This document shows, piece after piece, positions 2,246-32,360 of a DNA stretch of 35,042 nt. Made by a program: the position numbers and the translations under genes. How positions within the stretch are numbered: the stretch's first letter is position 1; the number at the start of each line of letters is the position of its first letter. Source of the DNA: Deltaproteobacteria bacterium (lineage in GTDB: Bacteria > JAEEML01); NCBI GenBank assembly GCA_016283195.1, contig JAEEML010000041.1, forward strand, positions 1 to 35,042, read 5' to 3'. A model generated the notes under the pieces. The model ran no database searches and was not told where the DNA came from. It saw nothing but the letters and a program-made list of their open reading frames with translations.

Positions 2246-2361
2246 CAGCCACCTCCCGGGCTGTGAATAAAGCAAGAAGCGTGCCAAATTGCTTTACTTA
2301 AAGAAAAGTAGTTAAAATTCAAAATGATATACGAAAAGTGGTAATTTTTCCGTGCAGTGAA

Positions 2362-2435
2362 AAAAGTGTGTCAAAAGTGTGTCAGGTGTGTCAAAAGTGT
2401 GCCAAAAGTGTGCCAGGTGTGTCAAAAGTGTTTCA
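2362..2435. repeat. Phased array of seven TGTGTCA-type heptamers
   Basis: Seven direct copies of a heptamer start at 2367, 2378, 2387, 2398, 2409, 2418 and 2429. The copies read TGTGTCA (four), TGTGCCA (two) and TGTTTCA (the last, which is the left half of the parS site). Steps are 11, 9, 11, 11, 9 and 11 bp, so the mean is 10.3 bp, about one helical turn, and all copies face the same side of the DNA. The array is also two copies of a 31-bp higher-order unit (11+11+9). Each heptamer differs from the parS half-site TGTTTCA by one or two bases. It lies in the 205-bp gap between sprT and comM, which holds no gene. Confidence 0.85.
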
Positions 2436-10795: not shown

Positions 10796-10882
10796 TGGTG
10801 CCGGAGGAGGGACTTGAACCCTCACAATCTTGCGATTAACGGATTTTGAATCCGTCGCGTCTGCCAATTCCGCCACTCCGGC
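10796..10882 (-). tRNA. tRNA-Leu (anticodon CAA)
   Basis: The minus strand folds as a class II tRNA with acceptor GCCGGAG/CTCCGGC, discriminator A and an encoded CCA end. The anticodon stem ACGGA/TCCGT encloses the loop TTCAAAA, giving anticodon CAA, which reads UUG Leu codons. The long variable arm (TAATCGCAAGATT) and the T loop GTTCAAGTC are as expected for tRNA-Leu. Confidence 0.97.
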
Positions 10883-17528: not shown

Positions 17529-18917
17529 TTAAACGCGCCGGTTATCGGCAGTAATTTCATACTCTTTTTTCAGGCGGTAAATGGTGCTGCGGCTGATATT
17601 AAGCTTTTTGGCCGCAAGACTCATATTACCGCGACAGTGCACTAAAGTTTCTAAAAAATATTCGCGGGTTATTGTTGCAGAAGAATTAGTGTTTATAAAA
17701 GTTATATTGTCTTCCTCCTCCTTTAAAGGCACTTTTTCCTCTCCTTTTTGGGCTTCTTCCCGGGGCTTTGGTTCTTCTTTTGGGGCTGTTTTGGTAAGGC
17801 AAATGTCTGCCGCATCTAAAATATTAGCCCGGTTTTGGCAAATAGTAAGCTGAATGCAATTAGCCAGTTCACGGATATTACCCGGCCAGTTATGCTGTAA
17901 AAGAAGATCTTGAGCCGCTTTGGTGAAATGTTTTTGAGCGGCACCGAATTTATGCAAAAAGTAATCCGCCAGTAGCAGAATATCCCGACCTCTTTCTCTA
18001 AGTGGCGGAACTTCTATAGGAAAAGCGGAGAGTCTATAAAAAAGATCCTCGCGAAAAAGATTTTTCGCCACCATTTGGGAGAGCTCGCGGTGGCTGGCGG
18101 TAATGAGGCGCACGTTTACTTTTAGCGGCATACTAGCGCCCAGCGGGGTGATTTCCCCATATTCCACGGCGCGGAGCAGAGCCGGTTGCATGGTAAGCGG
18201 CAGCTCGCCTATTTCGTCTAAAAAGAGCATCCCGCCGCTGGCGGCCATGAAAGCGCCCTGGTGGTTTTCGCTGGCGCCGGTAAAGGCTCCCTTTTTGTGG
18301 CCGAAGAGTTCGCTTGAGAGGAGGTTGTCGGTAAATGTGGCACAGTTGCGCACCAAAAAAGGCCCATCTTCTTTAGGATAAGCCAGTTCATAAAGAGCTT
18401 TGGCTACCAGCTCTTTGCCGCTCCCGGTTTCGCCGTGAATTAGTACCGGTAAACGGCTGGTGGCGGCTTTTTCTATCTCGCTATAGAGCTTTTTCATTGG
18501 CTGGCTTTCACCCAAAATGCCATGCCAGAGCTTAAAGTGCTGGCTATTTGTTGCATTTGCTTCCTGAAAAAAGGTGAGGCGGCTTCTGCCGGCTTCGATA
18601 AGGCATTTTTCGCTAAGTTCCAGCTCCTTAACCAGGCGCCCGTCAACTCTGGTGCCGTTGGTACTGCCTAAATCTTTTAAAAAATAACGGCTGCCTTTTT
18701 GGTAGATGGTGAAGTGATTGGCCGACATATAAGGGTCATTGCAGATAAAATCGCACTCCGCACCGCTGCCAATGGTGAACCGGCTGCTCTTGATAGCTAT
18801 TTGGGCTTTTTCGTTTAGCAAAAAAGCGGGCCGCGGCAGCCTTTGGGTGGTGAGCGCCGGCGCCCATTTCAAAGTGTGGCCTCCGCTAGGGCCCAATTCG
18901 TGATATTGTTCTTCCAT
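17529..18917 (-). CDS. FHA-domain sigma-54-dependent transcriptional activator
   Basis: The 462-residue protein is a bacterial enhancer-binding protein. The N-terminal FHA domain (about residues 40-120) has FTIGSGAECDF, an SANH core and GSTNGTRVDG, and would sense a phosphothreonine protein. The central AAA+ domain has Walker A GETGSGKE, the sigma-54 contact loop GAFTGA at residues 210-215, Walker B GMLFLDEIGE, the LFREDLFYRLSAFPIEVPPL block and WPGNIREL. A Lys/Glu-rich linker leads to a C-terminal Fis-type helix-turn-helix (MSLAAKKLNISRSTIYRLKK). All parts needed for open-complex formation are present. Of two adjacent ATG codons the second (18917) has GGAG at the better distance. It is divergent from the small lipoprotein at 19250 and is the likely regulator of the -24/-12 promoter at 30466. 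Confidence 0.93.
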   Translation of the reverse strand: MEEQYHELGPSGGHTLKWAPALTTQRLPRPAFLLNEKAQIAIKSSRFTIGSGAECDFICNDPYMSANHFTIYQKGSRYFLKDLGSTNGTRVDGRLVKELELSEKCLIEAGRSRLTFFQEANATNSQHFKLWHGILGESQPMKKLYSEIEKAATSRLPVLIHGETGSGKELVAKALYELAYPKEDGPFLVRNCATFTDNLLSSELFGHKKGAFTGASENHQGAFMAASGGMLFLDEIGELPLTMQPALLRAVEYGEITPLGASMPLKVNVRLITASHRELSQMVAKNLFREDLFYRLSAFPIEVPPLRERGRDILLLADYFLHKFGAAQKHFTKAAQDLLLQHNWPGNIRELANCIQLTICQNRANILDAADICLTKTAPKEEPKPREEAQKGEEKVPLKEEEDNITFINTNSSATITREYFLETLVHCRGNMSLAAKKLNISRSTIYRLKKEYEITADNRRV

Positions 18918-19017
18918 CATTTACTCCGCAAGAACGATGCTTAAAATTGAGGACTTTCTAGCACTTTGGCCAGGCAATTACAAGACAATATTTTACTATG
19001 TGACAACCAATTAATTC

Positions 19018-19047
19018 TTGACAATTACTTAAACTAAGCAGTAAACT
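19018..19047 (+). promoter_or_regulatory. Possible sigma-70 promoter in the AT-rich gap before the small lipoprotein
   Basis: The 332-bp gap 18918-19249 holds no gene and is AT-rich. A perfect TTGACA (19018-19023) is followed after 18 bp by TAAACT (19042-19047). A -24/-12-like string, TTGGCCAGGCAATTACA, at 18966-18982 lacks the essential GC at -12, so sigma-54 control of this gene is not supported. The transcript would have a leader of about 195 nt. Confidence 0.4.
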
Positions 19048-19249
19048 AATTACCACTTTAATATAAATCCTAGTGGGTTTAGATTTAGTGGAGTAGTAAT
19101 TGGTGAGAGAAGACCTTATTAACCAATAAGCTTACCGAGCTAATTAAGTTCAAGCAATACTGGTGTATTTGGCTTATTACCATACGCCATCCACCATGAT
19201 TGTTTGTAGCTTTTTTAATAAAAAAAACAGATTTTTAGGAGAAAATGCC

Positions 19250-19792
19250 ATGAATAAGATTTGCAATGTTATGCTATGTATAGCTTTGTTGAGTTTGGTT
19301 GCCTGTGGTTCAAACCAGCTTAACGAAAAGACAGAAGTATCGAAGTGTAGAGAGAATTTATCCTTTGCTCAGCATGCTATTACCCAGGCTTTGGAGACTG
19401 ATAGTACTACCGATTCTCAAACCGAGCGCCTTTTGTGGGCTTACGATGAAGGTAGCAAAACTCTTAGTTTTATGCATGACAATTTTTGTAATACCTGCGG
19501 CAATGACTGGGAATACTCTCTGTTGCTCACCAAAGATGAAAAAGGTTATTCTTTGGTTAGTCTTGCCAAGGATACTTCAAAAGACAGTGCTAAATGTTGG
19601 TATTGTATCTATGACCTGAAAACCAGTGCCGTCATTGAGGAAGAACAGTCCATCAATTTAACTTTCAGTAAAAAGAGAGACAGCTTTGATGATGAAAAAG
19701 GCGAAAAAGAAATATGGTCAGGTAAAATTGAGCTTGCTCAAAGAACAGGTCAAATTTTCATAAGCGACAATAAGAAGTGCATAATAAAATAG
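19250..19792 (+). CDS. Small Cys-rich lipoprotein, paralog of the one at 30540
   Basis: The protein has 180 residues. The signal peptide ends in a perfect lipobox, LVAC, with lipid attachment expected at Cys19. The mature part contains WAYDEGSKTLSFMHDNFCNT with a CxxC, followed by CWYC and a YDL block. The same order of motifs occurs in the lipoprotein at 30540: WSYDAASKTLTVKHD, CxxC and CLC. Both end in a KC/RC tail. The arrangement of tryptophan-led strands and paired Cys suggests a small beta domain with disulphides. The family was not recognised. The start at 19250 has AGGAG eight nt upstream, and the ATG at 19245 is closed by an immediate stop. The region is AT-rich compared with its neighbours. 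It is divergent from the FHA activator. Confidence 0.75.
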   Translation: MNKICNVMLCIALLSLVACGSNQLNEKTEVSKCRENLSFAQHAITQALETDSTTDSQTERLLWAYDEGSKTLSFMHDNFCNTCGNDWEYSLLLTKDEKGYSLVSLAKDTSKDSAKCWYCIYDLKTSAVIEEEQSINLTFSKKRDSFDDEKGEKEIWSGKIELAQRTGQIFISDNKKCIIK

Positions 19793-19875
19793 TTGCCAGC
19801 GAAGAAATTCTTGGCTTACTAAGCCAGGATGAAGCTGAGGAAGCCGCAAGAAAAGCCGCTAAACTATTTGAGTAA
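19777..19875 (+). other. Short open frame, possible gene remnant
   Basis: A 32-codon open frame starts with GTG inside the end of the lipoprotein gene in another frame. It codes for a peptide that looks protein-like: VASEEILGLLSQDEAEEAAR, then KAAKLFE. There is no ribosome binding site. The paralog at 30540 ends at the equivalent point, so this is not the lost C-terminus of the lipoprotein. It may be the tail of a decayed gene or chance. Confidence 0.2.
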
Positions 19876-19988
19876 TACCTACCAACTTGTGTTCTTACAG
19901 AATCAGCTATCCCGCTCTTGCAGAAACCCCCAAAAATATTTATAATATTACCCTCATATCGGCTATATGCCGGATATTGTGGAACAAT

Positions 19989-21785
19989 ATGAAATTTAAA
20001 TATTTTTTAACATTATTTGCCCTTTTTCTCCCTGGCGGATTTCTCGCTGCTTGCAGTAAGCCGCAAGCCGAGAAAACACCCACTTGTGTGCGCGGGCGCC
20101 TTGTTTGTCAGGATAGCAGCAGCTATAAACTCTGTTTGGGCGATAAAGGCTGGGCCGACGGTAAATGCCGCGATGATCAGGTTTGCGCCGGCCATGCCTG
20201 CCGCGACATAATTTGTGAGCCCGGAAAGCTCTACTGTTCATCAGATAATATTAATGCCATAAGGTGTGATTCTACCGGCACTACTTACAATATTGAGGAT
20301 AACTGCGCGGCCAGCAAAAACGGCCTCTGCATTGGTGCCGGCACTTGTGTCAACCTGTGCGAACCGGGCGGCAAATCTTATATCGGCTGTGAATATTTTG
20401 CCGTTGATTTGGATAATGCCTTTGTGCCCGGGCATGGCCGGCGCTATTTGGATGCTCCGGGAGCGCAATTTGCCGTTGTAGTGAGCAATACAGATAATAA
20501 TCGCGATGCTTATGTGGCTGTTACCACCCGTGATGACCCGGTTGATTCGGCTATTGTGCCGCCGCAGGGGATTCACACCTTTAATTTGCCTCGTCGCGAT
20601 GTCAACGGCACTGTCTTGGGGCCTCTTGCTTACCGCATATCTTCTAATGTGCCCATAAATGCGTACCAGTTTAACCCGCTGGAAAATGAGGATGTCTATT
20701 CCAACGATGCTTCTTTGCTTTTGCCCACCCACACTCTTGGCACTTTTCATGTGGTGATGACGCGAGAGCAAACTTTTAAAGATTTAAAAGGCTATGTAAC
20801 CGTGGTGGCCACCACGCCCGGTGAGACGGAAGTCACGGTGACAGTTTCGGCGCCAACTTTAGCCGGCAACGGCATTCCGGCACTTAAAGCCGGCGAGAGT
20901 TTCACCGCCACTTTGCTGCGTTTTGATGTTTTAAATATCGAAACCAACGAAATTGGGGCCGACCTCACCGGCAGTACGGTAAAATCCAGCCAGCCGGTAG
21001 CGGTTTTCGGCGGCAGTGAGGCGGCCAATGCTCCCAATACCAACCATTGCGGCAGCGACGGCCATTGTGAATACGACGGCAAAACCATTTGCACCAGCAA
21101 TGCCGATTGCAGCCAGTTTATCACTTGCTGCGCCGACCATTTGGAGCAGCAGCTTTATCCCACCAGCGCCTGGGGCAAGCACTATGTGGTGGCCCGCAGC
21201 TCGCCGCGCGGGATGGAAGCCGACTATGTGCGCATTTTGGCGGTTAGCGATGATACTCTGGTGGAAACATCGCCGGCTATTGGCTCCTGCGCTTTAAATC
21301 GTGGCGACTGGTGTGAATTTGAAGTCTTTGGTGATGTGGAAATACTGGCCACAGCGCCCATTTTAGTGGGCCAGTTTTTAGCTGCCGAGCAAGCACCAAA
21401 TCCTAATATTTACGGCGGGATGGAAGAAGGCGATGCCGCTATTGGCGACCCGGCTTTTATGCTCTCGGTGCCGGTTGAGCAATATCGCTCGGAATATGTC
21501 TTTTTGGCGCCCAATAAATATGCAGAGGATTATGTAAATATTATTTTGCCGGCAGATGCCGAGGCGGCTCTTGATAATCAGCTTATTCCAAATGAACTTT
21601 TTGAGAATATCGGCGCCGGCAGCAATTTTAAAGCCGGGCGTTTTCCTATTGCCGACGGTTTTCATAATGTTGTGCTCTCTAAGCCGGGGTCAATTATTGT
21701 TTATGGTTACGACCGCTATGTCTCTTACGGTTACCCGGGGGGCTTAAATCTCAATACTCTTACCGGTCAGGATGAGGAGGAATAA
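19989..21785 (+). CDS. IgGFc-binding-domain lipoprotein
   Basis: The protein has 598 residues. A signal peptide ends in the lipobox LAAC, so it is likely a surface or outer-membrane lipoprotein. Residues about 28-115 are Cys-rich, with CVRGRLVCQDSSSYKLC and CEPGKLYC among them, like short Cys-knot modules. The rest fits the IgGFc-binding protein N-terminal domain: AYVAVTTRDDP, INAYQFNPLE, DASLLLPTHTLG, YVTVVATTPGETEVTVT, SQPVAVFGGSEAAN, LEQQLYPTSAWGKHYVVARS and RILAVSDDTLVE. The domain is common in myxobacterial and planctomycete surface proteins; in animals it occurs in mucus proteins. The start at 19989 was chosen for the signal peptide; its site, GTGGA, is weak. The next gene starts on the base after its stop, so the two are translationally coupled. 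Confidence 0.85.
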   Translation: MKFKYFLTLFALFLPGGFLAACSKPQAEKTPTCVRGRLVCQDSSSYKLCLGDKGWADGKCRDDQVCAGHACRDIICEPGKLYCSSDNINAIRCDSTGTTYNIEDNCAASKNGLCIGAGTCVNLCEPGGKSYIGCEYFAVDLDNAFVPGHGRRYLDAPGAQFAVVVSNTDNNRDAYVAVTTRDDPVDSAIVPPQGIHTFNLPRRDVNGTVLGPLAYRISSNVPINAYQFNPLENEDVYSNDASLLLPTHTLGTFHVVMTREQTFKDLKGYVTVVATTPGETEVTVTVSAPTLAGNGIPALKAGESFTATLLRFDVLNIETNEIGADLTGSTVKSSQPVAVFGGSEAANAPNTNHCGSDGHCEYDGKTICTSNADCSQFITCCADHLEQQLYPTSAWGKHYVVARSSPRGMEADYVRILAVSDDTLVETSPAIGSCALNRGDWCEFEVFGDVEILATAPILVGQFLAAEQAPNPNIYGGMEEGDAAIGDPAFMLSVPVEQYRSEYVFLAPNKYAEDYVNIILPADAEAALDNQLIPNELFENIGAGSNFKAGRFPIADGFHNVVLSKPGSIIVYGYDRYVSYGYPGGLNLNTLTGQDEEE

Positions 21786-24596
21786 ATGCCAAAATTAAGG
21801 GTTAAAAGTGCTTTTTTGGCTGCGCTCCTTTTGTGTAATTGCTATAGCCCACCGGCAGAAACTCCGCAAAATAACGAGCTTAACGGCTATAAAGATAATT
21901 ATATTCCCGGGATAAACGATATCCAGGTGGCCTCGCAGCTCACGCTTAATAGTATTTATCCGGCCAGCGGCCCCCTAGAGGGCGGCACGGCCATTGATAT
22001 AATAGGTAGCGGTTTTAGCCCCGAAAGCCGCGTATTTATAGGTGATAAGCCAGCGGAAAATATTGTTTTTCGTGCCGCTTCCCGCCTTTCGGCCAGCACT
22101 CCAGCAGGTGAATTTGGGCCGGTAACCGTTACGGTGATAAACGGGAGCGAAAAAGTTTCATTGCCCAATGGTTTCAGCTATTTTCACCAAGTTAAAATTA
22201 ATAAAATAGATCCCCTTATTGCCATATCCACCGGCGGCAGCCGGCTCACTATTAGCGGCCAGGGATTTATCGCCGGCACAGTGGTGCGTGTAGGTGCCGC
22301 TTTGGCCGCTATTGCCGCTTTTCCGAGTGATGAAGAAATGGTTATTGCTATTCCGCCTATGCCGGCCGGCAATTATGCGATAACTATAAGTAATTTAAAT
22401 GGAAGTTCTACATATAGCAAAAAAGTGCAAGTGGTAGATCCCTTAAAAGTGCAGGCTGTCAATCCCCCTTATGGCCCCTTGACCGGCGGCACGGAAATCA
22501 CTATTTCCGGTAGCGCTCTTTTTGAAGGCACTTCGCTTTGGCTTGGGGAGCAGCCGCTTTCTATTACGGCGGCCACCGCGGATGGCGGGAGCATTAAGAG
22601 TATTACTCCTCCGGCGGCCGGCGAGGGCATGGCCTCTTTAAGAGCCGCCAATATTTGGGGCGAAAGTGTGCTAGAAAACGCTTTTGTTTATCTGGATGAT
22701 GCTAATAGCGATGCCAGAGTTGTGGCTCTTTTGCCGCCATCCGGCCCGGCCGCCGGCGGCGAGCGCGTGACGCTTATCGGCTATAATTTGCCGGCCGAAG
22801 GTGAGGTCAAATTTGGCCCCAATAAAGCCGCTTGCCGCTATATAGATAGCCATGAAATAGTTTGCAATACCCCGGGCGGACGTGATGGCCAGGTTGATAT
22901 AACTATTGGTAATTCCATTACTTTACCGGCGGCCTATACCTATGTGGATATCGGTATTTCGGCCCTTAATCCTAAAGACGGCTCTATTGCCGGCGGCGAG
23001 CTGGTAACCATTAGCGGCCATGGCTATAAAGAGGGAACAAGAGTTTATTTCGATGGCAACAGTGCGGAACTTATTGAAATTCTTTCGCCAAATGAACTGG
23101 TGGTGCGTATTCCCCCGGCTGCTGCCGCCGGCCAAGTAGCTGTGACTCTTAGCCGCTCTGGGGTGACAGCCACTTTGGAAGAGGCTTTTACTTATTACAA
23201 TAATGCCAACCGCCTGCACTGGACCAGCGGCGGCAAAATCAATGGCGCAATCAATGGCTATATTTATAATGCTTGGAGCGGAAAGCCCTTAAAAGACGCC
23301 TACTTACTTATTGGCTCAGACCCTAAAAACGGCCTTGGCGGTTATACCGATGCCAAAGGCATGGTAACTATTTCCTCTCCCGGGCTCAAAGGGCCGCTCT
23401 CTATTGTCACCGGCAGCAAGCCCGGCTATTCCAATATAAGTTTTGTGCAAGTTGATGCCCGCGATATGATTTTTTGGCTCACTCCTTCGCCCGATGCCGA
23501 GTATCAGGAAATGCTTGAAGAGCAACAACAGCAGCAGGAAGAAGGCAACAGCGATAATGAGGGCAATGTTGATCCGGGCAATAATGAAAAGCCGCCGGTT
23601 ATGCCCAGAGTTTTCGGCAATGTAACGCGGGCTAAAAGTTTGGAGCTGGAAGCCGGGAATATTGTTTGGGTTTTTTATACACAAAATTATATGTACGGCA
23701 CTCCTTATGTGCAGTCTAAAGCCCAACTGCAATATGGCGGTGAATACTCTTTGACCGCCGAAGTGGGTGAAAAGGCTATTGTGGCCTTTAGTGGCGATTA
23801 CGATAACCGCGGCAATTTTATAGCCAAAGGCCTGGGCATAGCTCCCTTCCAATTTTTCGATTATGATAAAATTTATAAAGTGGATATTGTGATTGATACC
23901 CCTCTTGATACCCCCTTAAAGCTCATTTTTAATGATAGCCCGCTGGATGCTTTAACGCCGGTTTCCAGCACGCTCCTCACTGTGGATTTAGGCGGTATGG
24001 GCTATTTGCCCTGGCCGCAGCGTATTGGTGACAGCGCCACGGAAACCATCATGATGCCCAGTAAATTACCTCATGATCTCGGGGAGATAAAACTCTTTGC
24101 CCGCTGCGGACTCTATAGCGAAAATATGAATGTGCCCATGAGTGAAGTGCGCCTGGGGCAAATTGCACCTCATGGCGAGGTTCCGGTTTCCCCGATGCTG
24201 GGGGTATTAAAAATGCTTTCGCCGGAGCCGCAAACCTATTTTAATAATGATTACCATTTTATCTTTGAGCCGACTATTACGCCGCCGCCTTATCCCACTT
24301 TTCATCAGATTTATTATGTTGACGGTATAACCGGGCGCATTAGTTGGATGGTCTTTAGCCGCGGCGATGTAAAGGAATTTACCCTGCCTAATTATGACGG
24401 TACCTCACTGGGCTCCCCGTTTGGGGCCACCATGCAAACGACCGTTATACAATCTTATTATGTACCGGAATTGGAATTTGATGATATGGACGATTACCGC
24501 ACCGGCGATTGGATTAGCCGGGCTTATAATTATACTTATTTTGATGCGGCGCCGCCGGAAGAAACAACGGATCCGGCTGACGGCTTGTCGGAATAA
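21786..24596 (+). CDS. Large lipoprotein with five IPT/TIG domains
   Basis: The protein has 936 residues. The signal peptide is followed by LLLCNC, with lipid attachment probably at Cys19 or Cys17. Five IPT/TIG immunoglobulin-like domains start near residues 56, 140, 225, 312 and 392, each with the pattern P-x-x-G-x-x-x-GG-x-x-(I/L/V)-x-I-x-G. A carboxypeptidase-regulatory-like beta domain follows (about 483-560; GAINGYIYNAWSGKPLKDAY). After a Gln/Glu-rich hinge (about 575-605) comes a C-terminal region of about 330 residues with no recognised domain. IPT chains act as rigid stalks in surface proteins, so the C-terminal region may be presented away from the membrane. The ATG directly follows the stop of the IgGFc-domain gene and uses an AGGAGG that overlaps its end. 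Co-expression and a shared complex are likely. Confidence 0.85.
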   Translation: MPKLRVKSAFLAALLLCNCYSPPAETPQNNELNGYKDNYIPGINDIQVASQLTLNSIYPASGPLEGGTAIDIIGSGFSPESRVFIGDKPAENIVFRAASRLSASTPAGEFGPVTVTVINGSEKVSLPNGFSYFHQVKINKIDPLIAISTGGSRLTISGQGFIAGTVVRVGAALAAIAAFPSDEEMVIAIPPMPAGNYAITISNLNGSSTYSKKVQVVDPLKVQAVNPPYGPLTGGTEITISGSALFEGTSLWLGEQPLSITAATADGGSIKSITPPAAGEGMASLRAANIWGESVLENAFVYLDDANSDARVVALLPPSGPAAGGERVTLIGYNLPAEGEVKFGPNKAACRYIDSHEIVCNTPGGRDGQVDITIGNSITLPAAYTYVDIGISALNPKDGSIAGGELVTISGHGYKEGTRVYFDGNSAELIEILSPNELVVRIPPAAAAGQVAVTLSRSGVTATLEEAFTYYNNANRLHWTSGGKINGAINGYIYNAWSGKPLKDAYLLIGSDPKNGLGGYTDAKGMVTISSPGLKGPLSIVTGSKPGYSNISFVQVDARDMIFWLTPSPDAEYQEMLEEQQQQQEEGNSDNEGNVDPGNNEKPPVMPRVFGNVTRAKSLELEAGNIVWVFYTQNYMYGTPYVQSKAQLQYGGEYSLTAEVGEKAIVAFSGDYDNRGNFIAKGLGIAPFQFFDYDKIYKVDIVIDTPLDTPLKLIFNDSPLDALTPVSSTLLTVDLGGMGYLPWPQRIGDSATETIMMPSKLPHDLGEIKLFARCGLYSENMNVPMSEVRLGQIAPHGEVPVSPMLGVLKMLSPEPQTYFNNDYHFIFEPTITPPPYPTFHQIYYVDGITGRISWMVFSRGDVKEFTLPNYDGTSLGSPFGATMQTTVIQSYYVPELEFDDMDDYRTGDWISRAYNYTYFDAAPPEETTDPADGLSE

Positions 24597-24611
24597 TGGC
24601 TTGGAGGCTTT

Positions 24612-25286
24612 GTGGACACTAGTTTTGGCGATATAATTTTAAAGCTGATTACCGTTTTGATACCGATGATTCTTTCGCTCACCGTGCATGAGTTTTCCCA
24701 TGCTTTTGCCGCCCATCTTTTGGGGGATAACACCGCGAAATTTCAGGGGCGACTCACCTTAAATCCCTTGCCGCATATCGACCCAATCGGCACTTTGCTT
24801 TTGCCCGGTATGGCAGTTGTTATGAGCTCCATGGGGGTGCCCTTTTTCGGCTGGGCCAAACCGGTGCCGGTAAATCCCATATATTTTAACAAAAAATATT
24901 CTATGCGCACCGGTATGCTTTTGACAGCTGCCGCCGGGCCTTTGAGCAATTTTATCATGGCTTTCCTTAGCGGCGGGCTTTTGGCTGTTTTTTATCATGC
25001 TAACCTGCTGCAAAGTCTGCCGGCTCTTTTCAGTTTTATTGTTACTTTTTTCCAAATTAATTTGGTACTGGCCATTTTTAACCTTATTCCCATTTATCCG
25101 CTCGATGGTCAAAAAGTGCTCTCCGGTCTCTTGCCGCGTGAGATGTCCAACTCTTTTGAGGATTTTTCGCGGCGCTACGGCTCATTTTTATTAATCGGCC
25201 TGATTATTTTTGGCGGCCGCCTTATTTCTTTGCCGCTCTCCTTAGCCTTTTCTTTTATTCTCAGCCTTTTCGGTTTGCCGGTATGA
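24612..25286 (+). CDS. M50-family site-2 protease (intramembrane metalloprotease)
   Basis: The 224-residue protein has about six membrane segments. The catalytic zinc motif HEFSH is at residues 26-30 in the first helix, and the third ligand is in NLIPIYPLDGQK, with Asp165, both as in the site-2 protease family. No PDZ domain is present. It is of the compact type found in many bacteria (YwhC-like). Such enzymes cut membrane-spanning segments of regulators or signal peptides inside the membrane. The GTG start at 24612 has GGAGG four nt upstream. It lies between two lipoprotein genes, with gaps of 15 and 10 bp. This suggests a link to the cluster, for example cutting an anchor or signal remnant, but such compact S2P genes are also often found in unrelated settings. 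Confidence 0.92.
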   Translation: MDTSFGDIILKLITVLIPMILSLTVHEFSHAFAAHLLGDNTAKFQGRLTLNPLPHIDPIGTLLLPGMAVVMSSMGVPFFGWAKPVPVNPIYFNKKYSMRTGMLLTAAAGPLSNFIMAFLSGGLLAVFYHANLLQSLPALFSFIVTFFQINLVLAIFNLIPIYPLDGQKVLSGLLPREMSNSFEDFSRRYGSFLLIGLIIFGGRLISLPLSLAFSFILSLFGLPV

Positions 25287-25296
25287 GGAGGTTTTT

Positions 25297-27228
25297 ATGC
25301 AACGCCGCTTGGGAATGATGCTTGCAATATCTTTAATTATTACCGCTTCTTGTGAAGAAGAAGTTATTTCCAGTATCAGCTCGAAAATATTTATCGAACC
25401 GGTAGCCAGAACTTCTTCAACCTCTTCTATAAATAAAGATACCGTCACGGTGAATATGGGCGAAGTTGCCCTCTATTCCGGCGATTCGGCGCTTTTTAAA
25501 GTTAGCAATCCCTCAACCAAGACTCTCTATATTTCCGAAGTTAAAAACAAAACAGATGATAAAGATTCACCTTTTGTTGTGCGTAGTTATCCTAAAAGTG
25601 TATTAACAGATCTAAGTAGCAAACAAGATTCATATATTGTTATCCACTACGCCCCAAAAACGGAATGGCAAGATAAAAACGGCAACGGCAAAGTAGATGA
25701 CGCTGAGCTGGATAAGGCCACTTTTGTCGTGCGCTCCGATGCTTCCAACGGCGAAGCGGAAATTCATGTTACCGGTTACGGAGTTTTTAAAGGCTATCCC
25801 GATCTCAAAGTTTGTTATGGCAATTATTGCGGCCCCGATGATAACGCCGAATGTCAAAGCGAACCGGGCCTGGGTATTACTTGCACAGCCAGTGTGCCTC
25901 TCGATTTCGGCAATATTGGCTTAGGCGGCACCGGCACGCAGGTTGTTACTTTGAAAAATGTGGCCGATTGCCCCCGCCCTGATGGCGCCGATCTATGTGA
26001 TTTTCCTGAGCTTTGTTTGGTTTCTATTAATAAAAATTCTAACCGGGAAAATATCGGTTTCGGTTTTGCCAAAGGCACTAACCAGCTGGGTCATTTTGAA
26101 ATTGTTGGCAGTGTAGTTATGCCGGCAGAACTCGCTCAGGAAGTTTATACAGCCAATTGCAGCGAAAAAATCAGCCACCTTTCGGAAGTAAAAATGCGCC
26201 TTAATTACAATGCGCCGCCCATGCAAAGCCAGGATGAGGCCATGTTGGTTATAGAGAGTAACGATCCCCTAAACACGGTAATAAAAGTGCCGATTAAAGC
26301 CAGTGCCAAAGATGCGCCCATTGCCAGATGCCACTTTAGGGAAGCCGACCCGAACGATCCCACCGCCCCTTATACTACGGGCAATGGCATTGCTCCTTTA
26401 ATGAGAGCCTATTTCGACGGCATTAACAGCTACGACCCCCATGCCGATGAAAATGCTTTAAATCATGGTATCACAAGCTATGAGTGGGAAGTTATTCGCT
26501 ACCCTGATGGCACAAATCCCAATGATTTTAAAGCTGTTTCCAATGGCCGCTATTTTGATTTCTTTTTGCCGCTTGCCGGTGATTATGAAGTAAAACTAAA
26601 AGTATATGACCGCGAAGGCACAGCTTCTGGTGATACCAGAGAATCGGTATGCCAGTTTAAGGTTATCCCGGCCAGTAAGCTCCATGTGCAGCTGGTTTGG
26701 GATCACCCGACAAACGATCAGGATTTACACCTGGTTTATCTCGATAAGAGCCATGTTATTTGCGACAAAGAAGCCGATTGCTATTGGAGCAATAAAGGCC
26801 CGGTTTGGTTTAACGGCGACGGCGCCAGTGAAGGGGCCAATCCGCGCCTGGATATAGACGATACCAACGGCATGGGGCCGGAAAATGTCAATATTGATGA
26901 TCCCAGGCCCGGTACATACCGCGTTTATGTGCATTATTTTGCCGTGAGCGGTGCCTCCTCCGCCGGGGCAGCAGCCGACGCCGTTGCTACTCCGGCCTCC
27001 ACATTGGAGACGAGAAACACGGTGCGTATTCATATTAACGGCCTCCAAGTGGCTGAATATCGCCGCACGTTGAGCAATGTGAAAGATATGTGGGCTGTTG
27101 CCGATATTGTCTGGAAAGAAAACGGCACAGCGGAAGTTATTCCTCTTGGCGGCAATAGCGGCTCGGATTACGGTTTTATTTGCCCAGATTTTAGCTGCTC
27201 GGCTCTTACCACCTGCGAAGCTCCGTAA
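25297..27228 (+). CDS. Lipoprotein with EF-hand loop, PKD-like and YfaP-like domains
   Basis: The protein has 643 residues with lipid attachment expected at Cys19 (TASC). Residues about 45-165 resemble an Ig-like domain of the choice-of-anchor type found in myxobacterial surface proteins. Within it, DKNGNGKVDDAE (126-137) is a full EF-hand/dockerin-type calcium loop. A second Ig-like domain with Cys residues spans about 200-350. A PKD-like domain follows (about 365-460; FDGINSYDPHA, ITSYEWEV). The C-terminal domain starts with VQLVWDHPTNDQDLHLVYLD (about 465) and resembles the DUF2135/YfaP family, including the PGTYRVYVHYF strand. Calcium-stiffened adhesive or structural surface protein is an inference. 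AGGAGG is present before ATG 25297. Confidence 0.8.
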   Translation: MQRRLGMMLAISLIITASCEEEVISSISSKIFIEPVARTSSTSSINKDTVTVNMGEVALYSGDSALFKVSNPSTKTLYISEVKNKTDDKDSPFVVRSYPKSVLTDLSSKQDSYIVIHYAPKTEWQDKNGNGKVDDAELDKATFVVRSDASNGEAEIHVTGYGVFKGYPDLKVCYGNYCGPDDNAECQSEPGLGITCTASVPLDFGNIGLGGTGTQVVTLKNVADCPRPDGADLCDFPELCLVSINKNSNRENIGFGFAKGTNQLGHFEIVGSVVMPAELAQEVYTANCSEKISHLSEVKMRLNYNAPPMQSQDEAMLVIESNDPLNTVIKVPIKASAKDAPIARCHFREADPNDPTAPYTTGNGIAPLMRAYFDGINSYDPHADENALNHGITSYEWEVIRYPDGTNPNDFKAVSNGRYFDFFLPLAGDYEVKLKVYDREGTASGDTRESVCQFKVIPASKLHVQLVWDHPTNDQDLHLVYLDKSHVICDKEADCYWSNKGPVWFNGDGASEGANPRLDIDDTNGMGPENVNIDDPRPGTYRVYVHYFAVSGASSAGAAADAVATPASTLETRNTVRIHINGLQVAEYRRTLSNVKDMWAVADIVWKENGTAEVIPLGGNSGSDYGFICPDFSCSALTTCEAP

Positions 27229-27241
27229 ATGAGGTTTTTTT

Positions 27242-28075
27242 ATGACCGCTCCCAAAACATCAGCTGTAAAAAATTTTGCCGCCGCTTTTGCCTACCCGTT
27301 TAAGGGGCTTACTTTTTTGGGCAAACACCGGCTTTTAGCCGCCGCTTTGCCGGCTATAATTCTTAATGTTATTATACTCGCCGTTGCTATATATTTGGTT
27401 TTTACCAAAGGAGCCGATTTTTTTGAATATCTCACCGGCCTCATTCCCAGCGGCGAAGAAGGCTCTTATCTAGCCAAGTTTGTTTATTTTTTAGGCAAAG
27501 GGTTAAAAATTCTTTTAACCCTTCTTTTGCTAATAATTACGCTTTTTTTTGTAAATATACTTGGCGCCGCCTGTGCTAGCCCGCTTTTGGATATCTTAAG
27601 TGCCAAATGCGAAAAAAAATTGCAATTACTTGAAATACCGGAGCTGCCATTTTTTACCTCGCTCATACTGTCGGTGAAAAATGCACTTTTGGCCGTTGTC
27701 CTCCAAATGTTTATTTGGCTTTTCCTCCTGCCGCTTAATTTGATTCCCGTTATTGGCGGAGTTCTTTATTTTGTTCTTTCTTCGGTTTCCACCTGGTTTT
27801 TTGCCTCTTTGCAATATCTTTCTTACCCGCTGGATCGCCGCCTGGTGCCGTTAAGTTATCAAATAAAAACAATTTTTAGTAATAAAATGGCCGCTTTTGG
27901 TTTTGGGGCCGGTGTAACTTTTATAACTTTTTTGCCGCTTGTAAATCTCATCTTTTTGCCTTTAGCGGCCGCCGGCGGCACCCTTTTTTCCACCGATTTA
28001 TGGCTTGATAACTGCTTGCCGCCGGAAGTTTTAAAATATTTTGCTCCCCGAGTAAATTCTACAAGCCAAAGGTAA
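27242..28075 (+). CDS. EI24/CysZ-like membrane protein
   Basis: The 277-residue protein has about five or six hydrophobic segments and fits the EI24 domain family, which includes E. coli CysZ, a sulfate transporter, and many uncharacterised members. Family-type blocks are FAYPFKGLTFLGKHR at the N-terminus, the middle block GAACASPLLDILSAKCEKK, IPVIGGVLYFVLSSVSTWFF with YLSYPLDRR, and FGFGAGVTFITFLPLVNLIF followed by a Gly/Ala-rich helix. The substrate is unknown; no sulfur genes are nearby. It begins 13 bp after the PKD lipoprotein, with GAGG six nt before the ATG, and ends 3 bp before the next gene. It is the first of three closely linked genes that look like a membrane complex. Confidence 0.8.
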   Translation: MTAPKTSAVKNFAAAFAYPFKGLTFLGKHRLLAAALPAIILNVIILAVAIYLVFTKGADFFEYLTGLIPSGEEGSYLAKFVYFLGKGLKILLTLLLLIITLFFVNILGAACASPLLDILSAKCEKKLQLLEIPELPFFTSLILSVKNALLAVVLQMFIWLFLLPLNLIPVIGGVLYFVLSSVSTWFFASLQYLSYPLDRRLVPLSYQIKTIFSNKMAAFGFGAGVTFITFLPLVNLIFLPLAAAGGTLFSTDLWLDNCLPPEVLKYFAPRVNSTSQR

Positions 28076-28078
28076 AAT

Positions 28079-28819
28079 ATGGGCGCGGAAGTTAAAAAAT
28101 ATGCCGCCTATTTGGCGGCTCTCCCCGAGCCCATGATGCGCAAAATAGCGGCCGTGCGCCTCTTTGATGAACTTGAAACAGAGGAACTCCTTGATTTACT
28201 TACTAAATTAATAGCCGGGCAGCGTAAGACAGTAAGTTATGTGCTCATGCTGGAAGCTATTTTAGAAGCCCACATGGAGGAGCTTTTGCCTTATGAGCGG
28301 GTCTCTGACATTTATGCTCTGGCTAAAGAACGCGGCTTGGAGGCGGTGACAAAACTGCTTTTAAATCCGCAAAATAGCTCTAAGGAGGCCAAAGAGCGGG
28401 GCATGCTGGACCTCACTTTGCAGGACGAGCCGCTCGGTATGCGCAAATACATGGCTCGCCATGCCGATGCGGCCCTGATAGATCGCCTTTTAAATGACCC
28501 GGATCCGGCGGTAATTTATAATCTTTTGCGCAACCCGCGCCTTACGGAAGCGGCAGTGCTGCGCATTGCCACCAGGCGCTACTCCTCGCCGGAGGTTTTT
28601 AAAGAAATTCTCGCCTGTTACCGCTGGCAAAAGAATTACCGCGTGCGCCTCGCCATTATTTATAACCCCACTGTGCCGGTGAAATTAGCCTGCCAGCTCC
28701 TGCCCACTGTGTTAGACCAGGATTTGCGCGATCTCAGCAAAGAGGGGACGCTCTCTATGGAAATCCGCGAACTGGCCGAGACGATGCTGGGGGAACGGCG
28801 GAAAGGGAGTGAGGCATGA
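28079..28819 (+). CDS. Helical-repeat protein of unknown function
   Basis: The 246-residue protein is predicted to be all alpha-helical. Short repeated units such as LIDRLLNDPDPAVIYNLLRN, AAVLRIATRRYSSPEVF and VRLAIIYNPTVPVKLACQLL resemble HEAT or leucine-rich-repeat-variant units of about 25-35 residues. There is no signal peptide and no membrane segment, so it should be cytoplasmic and may be a scaffold. No family name was recognised. The stop overlaps the start of the next gene (ATGA), so the two products are made together and probably interact. The ribosome site, AAAGGT, is in the end of the EI24-like gene. Confidence 0.65.
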   Translation: MGAEVKKYAAYLAALPEPMMRKIAAVRLFDELETEELLDLLTKLIAGQRKTVSYVLMLEAILEAHMEELLPYERVSDIYALAKERGLEAVTKLLLNPQNSSKEAKERGMLDLTLQDEPLGMRKYMARHADAALIDRLLNDPDPAVIYNLLRNPRLTEAAVLRIATRRYSSPEVFKEILACYRWQKNYRVRLAIIYNPTVPVKLACQLLPTVLDQDLRDLSKEGTLSMEIRELAETMLGERRKGSEA

Positions 28820-30354
28820 AGGAACACTTTTTTCATATTTTACTTGGAACCTTAGCTCTCCTCCTCCTTTTGCTCATTTCCGTAAATATTCAGCTTTCTA
28901 TGATGCGCGTGGCTTTTACCACCCAGATTTACGGCGCAAATGAGCTCTGGGCCGGCCATAGCGGCTCTTTGCGCTTTACCGCTATGATGGATGACGGCTT
29001 TAGTTTTGAAGAAGATATTGCGGCCGAAGTACGCCTGATTTATGCCGAAGACGGCCAGGATTTTTTGCTTTTTAAAGGCGAAAATCGCCTGGGCGACACT
29101 TTGGAAGTAAATTTTTCTGTGCCACCTCGCCTGGGTAAAGCCATGATCGCCGCTACTATTTTTACCGGGAGCGGCGAAGAATTTGTCACCTTGCCGGTGG
29201 AAGTTATTAATGAGCCCAAAGAAAAGCCACTCTCCCTCTTGCCGCCGGAGCGCTCGTTGCCCTTAAATAAAGAGGAAAAACGCTGCTGTTTTCCAGAAAT
29301 TGCCCCCGGACAAAAGCTTTATGCCTATCCCGAAAGCGGCCTTTTAGCGCCTCAGGCAAAAAACACCATCTATCTTTTTAGCCCCTCTTTAGCTGCCGAA
29401 GCGGCGGAACTGCTCCGCCTCACTGTACCCATGACAATTATAAGGCCCGATAGTTTTGGGGTAGCCGCAATCAGCCTTAACCCCGGTATTGTGCCCACTT
29501 TTACTTTGGAAATCGAAGATAACCGCGACGGAGCCAGCGAAGAGCTAAAATTGCCCCTCGAAGTGGCCCCGGCGCAAATGTTTTTGACTCTCTCCCAATA
29601 TAGAGCCAAAGCGGGTGAAAAAATTACGGCCACTTTAAATACTTTGCGCCGCCAGGAAACCATATTTTTGGATATTTGGTATAAAAATATCCTTTTGGAA
29701 AGCCGGGCTGTAAGTATCAAAAACGGCCAAGGCAGCCACTCTTTTACTATTCCCCAAGATGCGGCCGGCCTCATTTTTGTGCAAATATATCGCCCCTTTG
29801 TCAATCCCGGTGAAACTCAGGATATGCGGGCTATATGGGTAAATAACGCGCCAGATGATGAGAGCTTTTTTGCCCTAATAGCGCTCTTAAATAAAGCTGG
29901 CGGCGGCCAGGATCCGCTACTTAGCTATTTGGTAGATAAAAAGCCCTTAGTTCCCCACCATAAAGGCGAAGAGCCGCTAAAATTAATTTTAAGCCGCCTC
30001 TATAGAGAAGATCCCGGCGCGCCGCTCCTGCTCGATAGCGGCCCGGCCAAAAGAGCGGCCTTTGCTCTAGCGCAAAAAGAGAGCCGTGAAAAACTGCACT
30101 ATGCCTATATTGTCACCGGTATTCTTCTGCTAATTCTCCTTATTTTTGTGATAGTTACGCATCTCAAAAAAACAAAAAAAGCGCTGCGTTCTGCGCTTGA
30201 TGAGTGCCCGGAGCTCATAGAAGATGGAGCCGGGCCGCCTGAGATTAGCCTCATGCCGCCCAAAGTGGCTTTTATTTTGGTTATTATGGCCCTTTTGCTC
30301 CTCCTTTTTACCGCCGGTATTCTCCTCGCCAATCTCAAATGGACTATCTGGTAA
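28816..30354 (+). CDS. Large membrane-anchored protein, unrecognised
   Basis: The 512-residue protein has one N-terminal hydrophobic segment (about residues 7-28), a large soluble region of about 400 residues, and two hydrophobic segments near the C-terminus (about 436-458 and 483-508). The soluble part is rich in beta strands and looks like two or three Ig-like or macroglobulin-like domains, for example LRFTAMMDDGFSFEEDIAAE and ITATLNTLRRQETIFLDIWY. It should face the periplasm. A conserved-looking CC pair occurs near residue 157. The outline resembles BatD-type proteins, but no signature was found. It is translationally coupled to the helical-repeat protein by a 4-bp overlap. A periplasm-facing sensor or assembly factor tied to a cytoplasmic scaffold is a reasonable guess. 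Confidence 0.65.
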   Translation: MKEHFFHILLGTLALLLLLLISVNIQLSMMRVAFTTQIYGANELWAGHSGSLRFTAMMDDGFSFEEDIAAEVRLIYAEDGQDFLLFKGENRLGDTLEVNFSVPPRLGKAMIAATIFTGSGEEFVTLPVEVINEPKEKPLSLLPPERSLPLNKEEKRCCFPEIAPGQKLYAYPESGLLAPQAKNTIYLFSPSLAAEAAELLRLTVPMTIIRPDSFGVAAISLNPGIVPTFTLEIEDNRDGASEELKLPLEVAPAQMFLTLSQYRAKAGEKITATLNTLRRQETIFLDIWYKNILLESRAVSIKNGQGSHSFTIPQDAAGLIFVQIYRPFVNPGETQDMRAIWVNNAPDDESFFALIALLNKAGGGQDPLLSYLVDKKPLVPHHKGEEPLKLILSRLYREDPGAPLLLDSGPAKRAAFALAQKESREKLHYAYIVTGILLLILLIFVIVTHLKKTKKALRSALDECPELIEDGAGPPEISLMPPKVAFILVIMALLLLLFTAGILLANLKWTIW

Positions 30355-30362
30355 AGATGGTA

Positions 30363-30376
30363 TGACAAAAATGTCA
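30363..30376. promoter_or_regulatory. Inverted repeat, candidate activator site or weak terminator
   Basis: TGACA-AAAA-TGTCA is a perfect 5-bp inverted repeat just after the stop of the membrane protein. It is about 120 bp upstream of the predicted start site of the -24/-12 promoter, the usual position for an enhancer-binding protein. As a hairpin followed by AT-rich DNA it could instead be a weak terminator for the upstream series. Confidence 0.35.
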
Positions 30377-30465
30377 CTATTTTAAATATATTTGCAATAG
30401 CAGTACTCCTCAAAAGACAAAGCATAACAATTGAATATTATTTCACAAAACAATAGTTTTCTTTT

Positions 30466-30482
30466 TTGGCATAGATTTTGCA
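30466..30482 (+). promoter_or_regulatory. Sigma-54 (-24/-12) promoter
   Basis: TTGGCATAGATTTTGCA matches the sigma-54 consensus YTGGCAC-N5-TTGCW, with GG at 30468-30469 and GC at 30480-30481, exactly 12 bp apart. Only the sixth base (T for C) departs from consensus. It points at the lipoprotein gene starting 59 bp further on, with transcription expected near 30493. A sigma-54 activator gene is in the same window. Confidence 0.7.
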
Positions 30483-30494
30483 AGAGATAATTTT

Positions 30495-30524
30495 GTCGCT
30501 CGGTGCTTTTAAATTTTTAGCGAC
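30495..30524 (+). promoter_or_regulatory. Leader stem-loop before the second small lipoprotein
   Basis: GTCGCT and AGCGAC form a 6-bp stem with an 18-nt AT-rich loop right at the predicted transcript start, ending 4 nt before the AGGAG. It may protect the 5' end of the message or affect translation. This is inference from position. Confidence 0.3.
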
Positions 30525-30539
30525 GAATAGGAGTTTAAA

Positions 30540-31262
30540 ATGAAAAAGGCAAGATTAACTTTTGTAGCGATGCTGGCAACTATGGTTTTGGCTTTTGGAG
30601 CCTGCGATAAACCTCTTGATGAGTGCCAAGATGGTAAGGACTGTAAAATAATGCCCAATCAGGCTATTGGGGAGGTTTCCAAATGTATCGACAACTCAGC
30701 TGGTGGCGATGTTCCGGTTCCGGCTGTCGATGCGGCCTCAGACGCAGCCAGCGATGCCAACTCTGATGATGCGGATAGCGATGAAGGTAATGATGGCGAT
30801 AGCGATGATATACAAATTGCCCCCAATGATGGCAACAGCGATGATGATGGTTCCTCGGATGTGACTATTGCTCCGGCACCGTCGCCTGATGGTTTCTCCT
30901 GGAGCTACGATGCCGCCAGCAAAACTCTCACTGTTAAACACGATGGCAGTTGTTTTGAATGTGGCTGGGACGTAGGTGTTACGATGCTTAAACAAGGTGA
31001 AAACGATGTCATTGAAGTTCTCGAAAGTATCAACGCCACTCTAGGTACCGATTGTCTTTGCGCTCGTGATATTAGCGTCAGCATGGCTGGTATTGAAGGC
31101 TCCTCCATCAGCTTTAAGTATTCACAGAGTGTTGTCATAGACAGCAAAGTTGACCTCGTTGAGGTCTTTGATGGCGCCCTCGAGCTCTCCAAGAAAAGCG
31201 GTAAAGAGAGCTTTAGCGCTAAGTTGCCTAATGTTTACACCCCGGAACGCTGTGCTAAATAA
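30540..31262 (+). CDS. Small acidic Cys-rich lipoprotein, paralog of the one at 19250
   Basis: The 240-residue protein has a signal peptide with lipid attachment expected at Cys22 (FGAC). A low-complexity Asp/Ser/Asn-rich, very acidic linker (about residues 58-105) separates the anchor from the folded domain. That domain contains FSWSYDAASKTLTVKHD, a CxxC (CFEC), DCLC and a C-terminal RC, in the same order as the paralog at 19250, which lacks the acidic linker. The acidic linker may bind cations or act as a stalk. The ATG at 30540 has AGGAG at a normal distance. It is the only gene after the sigma-54 promoter, and it converges with the CPBP protease gene. The protein family was not recognised. 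Confidence 0.8.
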   Translation: MKKARLTFVAMLATMVLAFGACDKPLDECQDGKDCKIMPNQAIGEVSKCIDNSAGGDVPVPAVDAASDAASDANSDDADSDEGNDGDSDDIQIAPNDGNSDDDGSSDVTIAPAPSPDGFSWSYDAASKTLTVKHDGSCFECGWDVGVTMLKQGENDVIEVLESINATLGTDCLCARDISVSMAGIEGSSISFKYSQSVVIDSKVDLVEVFDGALELSKKSGKESFSAKLPNVYTPERCAK

Positions 31263-31990: not shown

Positions 31991-31999
31991 TTTTAAAAG

Positions 32000-32025
32000 C
32001 CCTCACCCCCTAGCCCCCTCTCCAC
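32000..32025. repeat. REP-like CCCTCACCCC...CCCCTCTCC sequence
   Basis: The plus strand carries CCCTCACCCCCTAGCCCCCT, then CTCCA. Its complement matches the two ends of each nearby 57-bp unit (GGAGAGGGGC and GGGGTGAGGG). Sequences of this type are widely scattered extragenic palindrome-like elements in bacteria. The following 80 bp, up to the tandem array, show no gene. Confidence 0.5.
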
Positions 32026-32110
32026 CTTGCCGGTAGCGAGGGGGAACTTGTCGTAATTATAGGCCCTTTTATTGGCTATAAGATCAAGGAGCCCCTCGCC
32101 ATTTGTAAAA

Positions 32111-32331
32111 ATGGAGAGGGGCGCGATGCTGTAATTTTCACTGCCTGTCGGGGTGAGGGAATGAGAAATGGAGAGGGGCGCGATGCTGTAATTCTCACTA
32201 CCCGTCGGGGTGAGGGAATAAAAAATGGAGAGGGGCGCGATGCTATAATTCTCACTGCCTGTCGGGGTGAGGGAATAAAAAATGGAGAGGGGCGCGATGC
32301 TGTAATTCTCACTGCCTGTCGGGGTGAGGGA
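32111..32331. repeat. 57-bp tandem repeat, about 3.9 copies
   Basis: Copies start at 32111, 32168, 32225 and 32282, each opening with ATGGAGAGGGGCGCGATGCT and ending in GTCGGGGTGAGGGA. They differ at only a few bases. As 57 is a multiple of three, the minus strand stays open with a 19-residue unit, SLTPTGSENYSIAPLSIFY, inside an open frame at 31993-32355 that begins 5 bp after the VWA gene stop. There is no good ribosome site, so a protein product is doubtful. The array occupies the 370-bp gap between the VWA gene and the CPBP protease gene. Confidence 0.9.
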
Positions 32332-32360
32332 GAAGAAAGGTGAAATAGTGGTCATTATTC

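Follow-up and report, generated by a model that had tools for sequence, protein, structure and literature searches.

The two small cysteine-rich lipoproteins, LpA and LpB, that flank a run of seven genes in the stretch of DNA analysed here (the window, i.e. all 35,042 nucleotides, corresponding to contig C69 in a draft assembly of 3.2 Mb) are paralogues and two of four dispersed family members. We consider it probable that LpB forms a sigma-54- and dyad-dependent unit of its own, with LpA being separate and the seven-gene run and adjacent FHA-domain activator being neighbours. The features concerned are collected in Table 1.

Table 1. Positions and supporting evidence for the features of the window considered in the text.
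Feature	Position	Strand	Evidence or remark
comM GRCACAC array	2362-2435		listed with 2271-2286 (minus)
FHA-sigma54 AAA+-Fis HTH activator, 463 aa	17529-18920	-	Pfam FHA 3e-15, Sigma54_activat 3e-61, HTH_8 3e-7
LpA, small Cys-rich lipoprotein	19250-19792	+	lipobox LVAC; belongs to the family; lacks a sigma-54 promoter
IgGFc-binding-domain lipoprotein, gene 1 of seven-gene run	19989-21785	+	PF17517 1e-64; lipobox LAAC
Five-TIG-domain secreted protein or lipoprotein	21786-24596	+	PF01833, 5 stretches
M50 site-2 protease family membrane protein	24612-25286	+	PF02163 4e-14
Lipoprotein	25297-27228	+	weak matches: choice-of-anchor-D, PKD, DUF2135
EI24/CysZ-like membrane protein	27242-28075	+	PF07264 1e-25
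246-aa conserved protein (label LRV)	28079-28819	+	no Pfam match
Membrane protein, final gene of seven-gene run	28816-30354	+	
Dyad TGACAAAAATGTCA (TGACA-N4-TGTCA), candidate enhancer	30363-30376	.	about 100 bp 5' of LpB sigma-54 site
Perfect sigma-54 (-24/-12) promoter TGGCATAGATTTTGCA	30467-30482	+	0 mismatches
LpB, Cys-rich lipoprotein	30540-31262	+	Asp-rich linker; Asp at +2

The earlier note described a dense series of lipoproteins, membrane proteins and a site-2 protease with an FHA-headed sigma-54 activator divergent from the first small lipoprotein, and both descriptions hold: the seven genes nearly abut across 19989-30354, between LpA and LpB, and the activator gene lies on the minus strand beside LpA. 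The start of LpA was corrected from GTG 19163, as given in an earlier reading, to ATG 19250, and that of the IgGFc lipoprotein to 19989. Gaps of about 196 bp (LpA) and about 185 bp (LpB) separate the run from the flanking genes, neither of which is therefore obviously part of its transcript. Elsewhere in the window, a tRNA gene (10799-10882, minus) lies between a queA-like gene and its neighbour, and a 57-bp tandem repeat (3.9 copies, 32107-32331) occupies part of the ORF at 31993-32355; since a similar sequence also precedes pilA, this ORF may be spurious repeat sequence. A 16S search of the draft yielded no SSU match.

LpA and LpB are 27% identical over 106 aa (E 9e-10) and have one motif order in common (WxYD..SKTL..HDxxCxxC...C-x(1-2)-C..D..(W/F)xGx(I/L)(D/E)L..(S/T)G..C), as had been noticed previously. 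The suggestion that the pair brackets the run stands insofar as paralogues do flank it, but the genome has four scattered copies in all, the other two (on contig C177, 69% identical to LpA, and on contig C90, 34%) standing alone without the seven-gene run alongside. All four fall into one clade (support 0.96), and the LpA/LpB pair thus reflects expansion within the lineage. The proposal that LpA and LpB are switchable halves of one unit was rejected, given the copies elsewhere and the differing promoters.

Whilst a single-protein search with LpB, covering 40 unrelated genomes, returned matches in its own genome only, a profile of the four members identified relatives in 8/195 genomes of the myxobacteria-like phylum (G386, Deltaproteobacteria RIFOXYA12_FULL_58_15, and seven more), a count that leaves out a ninth match (G534) spanning model positions 7-107 only. 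The four-member profile (A3) aligned with that of the relatives (A5) in hhalign (98.7%, E 3e-16), and some of the relatives' genomes carry two or three copies. Members have a lipobox together with a W.YD...C..C...C...C core, which comprises W.YD....L....D, a first Cys cluster, a second Cys cluster followed by (Y/F)D, W.G.(I/L)(D/E)L...G and a final Cys, and for which neither Pfam nor NCBIfam yielded a match. The relatives in G386 and elsewhere resemble the window copies in the WxYD...Cys-rich core, the terminal Cys and the lipobox, but carry 'NCCG.H' and 'RC.CMC.(Y/F)D' in place of the CxxC(G/A) and C-x(1-3)-C motifs seen in the window copies; the conserved cysteines may form disulfides. LpB differs from the other copies, and from the G386-type relatives, in its long Asp-rich linker and in the Asp directly after the lipidated Cys. 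In E. coli an Asp at +2 would retain a lipoprotein in the inner membrane, and under that rule LpB would likewise be retained there. An AlphaFold2 model of LpA's domain, built with LpB as the sole companion sequence, was all-beta, but its mean pLDDT of 51.8 fell short of what a fold search requires. We regard these proteins as an unnamed, cysteine-rich and probably beta-rich family of myxobacteria-like bacteria.

The sigma-54 promoter that had been proposed before LpB was borne out by a perfect site with the -24 GG and -12 GC elements at the correct spacing; its final base lies 57 bp upstream of the start codon of LpB. In contrast, no sigma-54 site was found upstream of LpA (best score 5.3, compared with 19.8-29.1 for the matrix training sites), nor upstream of the C177 and C90 paralogues. 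A genome-wide search, which took in perfect sites only, located 23 (two of them inside genes and probably there by chance) against one for a reversed-pattern control, indicating that sigma-54 promoters are real in this genome. LpB is thus very likely to be controlled by the alternative sigma factor 54, the mode of regulation that the sequence evidence favours.

The exact dyad about 100 bp upstream of this promoter is a candidate activator site, for which a position within about 60-200 bp would be expected. LpB is preceded by one clear dyad; NtrC-type activators often need two. The exact core, GACA-N4-TGTC, occurs in 5/22 sigma-54 upstream regions (mean 0.043 and maximum 2 in 2000 shuffles), namely 78-122 bp upstream at LpB, L092 (a Fib_succ_major lipoprotein), L094 (a secreted, signal-peptide protein), L083 (a membrane peptide of 44-47 residues) and L093 (a possible small RNA), so that the dyad-bearing promoters mostly precede envelope genes. 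The pattern was spotted by inspection and tested afterwards, as one among, by our estimate, some 3,600 comparable dyads open to choice; even so, chance remains an unlikely source of this count. At L093 (contig C149) the dyad and a sigma-54 site (7445, minus) are followed by no clear gene, and about 140 nt of sequence end in a terminator-like hairpin and T-run; Rfam gave no match for this possible RNA, and its fold showed no clear gain in stability over shuffled sequences (z -1.0). Because its perfect sigma-54 site is accompanied by a dyad core common to four other promoters, LpB looks like a member of a small envelope sub-regulon governed by one of the seven sigma-54 activators that the genome encodes.

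Which activator this might be bears on the model of the earlier note, a single phosphothreonine-controlled envelope system in which a Ser/Thr kinase would set the FHA activator beside LpA, and this activator would in turn drive sigma-54 promoters of LpB and possibly also of LpA and the run. The genes are adjacent, the activator is intact (GAFTGA and Walker motifs are kept), the genome has 23 Ser/Thr kinase-like matches above the Pfam cut-off, LpB has its perfect promoter, and FHA-domain sigma-54 enhancer-binding proteins occur in Myxococcus xanthus (Jelsbak et al. 2005, as cited in PMC6971385). However, LpA and the run are without sigma-54 sites upstream, and neither a dyad nor a sigma-54 site was found near the activator gene, so that the link between activator and LpB is one of distance. 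Furthermore, of the six other full sigma-54 activators in the genome, five carry a receiver domain and one likewise has an FHA domain. In the FHA domain of the window's activator, 'IGS' aligns to the 'IGR' of Rv0020c/TB39.8, placing Ser where the Arg of the 'GR' motif normally contacts the phosphate of phosphothreonine, although the Ser of SxxH, the His and the Asn of STNG are kept. The second FHA activator (L164, C121:9440; FHA-GAF-sigma54-HTH) also has Ser at this position, as judged by eye.

Conservation of gene order provides a further argument against a single system. The lipoprotein pair and seven-gene series had been expected to occur together in other genomes, yet the other series genes were absent from the neighbourhoods of LRV (20 genomes), the M50 protein (7), the IgGFc lipoprotein (4) and the lipoprotein family (12 places), with the exception of general FHA, TPR or AAA+ matches, one RRF match and, in a single genome, an EI24-like frame encoded on the opposite strand some 6 kb away from the 246-aa protein. 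Relatives of the 246-aa protein were found in 55/385 other genomes sampled. The M50 protein has a relative in G386 (59% identity) whose flanking genes are all different and, by our reading, include XerD- and ScpB-like ones; neither the 246-aa protein nor the M50 protein was retained as a marker of a conserved series, as their neighbours are not shared between genomes. The IgGFc lipoprotein has its best relative (48% identical) in a Deltaproteobacteria MAG, according to a collection scan that may omit records very near the window, and a literature search for IgGFc with 'Myxococc' found no papers. The series genes also lay apart in the neighbourhoods from the nearest relative found, the comparison genomes being related to the window's genome at the level of domain only, with none at genus level. 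Accordingly, whilst the envelope theme survives, a single phosphothreonine-controlled cluster is unlikely, and the seven-gene run and FHA activator are neighbours of LpA and LpB to which no functional tie has come to light.

A second class of enhancer is evident among the remaining sigma-54 promoters. Helically phased GRCACAC arrays of four to seven units, spaced mostly 9-11 bp apart, lie upstream of the sigma-54 promoters of comEA (twice), comM and PD-(D/E)XK nuclease genes, the array loci outside the window being L077, L098, L079, L087, L088, L089 and L155:4446-4583; pilA, the minor-pilin-like operon, rtcB and a cpxP-like gene are preceded by neither dyad nor array. The GTGTC core of these arrays may fit a PilR-type activator. 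The array-bearing comM, comEA and nuclease promoters are candidates for a sigma-54 DNA-uptake regulon, and we tentatively divide sigma-54 control here, without putting the case as high as even, into at least two sub-regulons distinguished by enhancer, i.e. a mostly envelope-related set with TGACA-N4-TGTCA and DNA-uptake genes with phased GRCACAC arrays.

These observations also bear on whether LpB might itself belong to a pilus and DNA-uptake regulon under a response regulator, for instance that at C184:14267, which we read as PilR-like from its receiver domain and histidine-kinase neighbour. Sigma-54 sites do precede pilA, the minor-pilin-like operon, both comEA genes and comM, but arrays in place of exact dyads mark the comEA, comM and nuclease promoters, LpB shows the reverse, and both elements are missing at pilA and the minor-pilin operon, leaving this assignment a slim chance. 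That the dyad and sigma-54 site are coincidental or a repressor site, with LpB regulated otherwise, is very improbable: the dyad is missing from most other sigma-54 promoters, but five were observed against 0.043 expected, and the promoter pattern is similarly in excess of its control.

We therefore return to LpB as a separate transcription unit, for which the following mechanism may be envisaged. An NtrC-type activator would bind the dyad (30363-30376) and contact RNA polymerase-sigma54 at 30467-30482, opening the LpB promoter as at the few other, mostly envelope-related, genes with this dyad. After export and lipidation the lipoprotein would be displayed on its Asp-rich linker, whilst LpA would be expressed separately, from no recognisable sigma-54 promoter. 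Two testable accounts replace the cluster model, namely an undescribed lipoprotein family and sigma-54 sub-regulons that may be readable from their enhancers, one of which suggests that natural transformation genes come under sigma-54 in a myxobacteria-like lineage.

Dyad-driven sigma-54 regulons, like FHA activators, have precedents in Myxococcus. The window's activator has the same order of FHA, sigma-54 AAA+ and Fis-type HTH domains as the M. xanthus FHA enhancer-binding proteins, but differs in having Ser in place of the phosphate-contacting Arg. The LpB set is comparable to the regulon of Myxococcus NmpR, for which a dyad enhancer, GCGCA-N5-TGCGC, lies upstream of a sigma-54 promoter (PMC11841059): in each case several operons have a dyad close upstream of their -24/-12 promoter. 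The LpB set nevertheless differs from that of NmpR in the dyad itself (TGACA-N4-TGTCA), in the single clear copy before LpB where NmpR has two, and in its targets, which are mostly envelope proteins whereas those of NmpR concern oxygen use.
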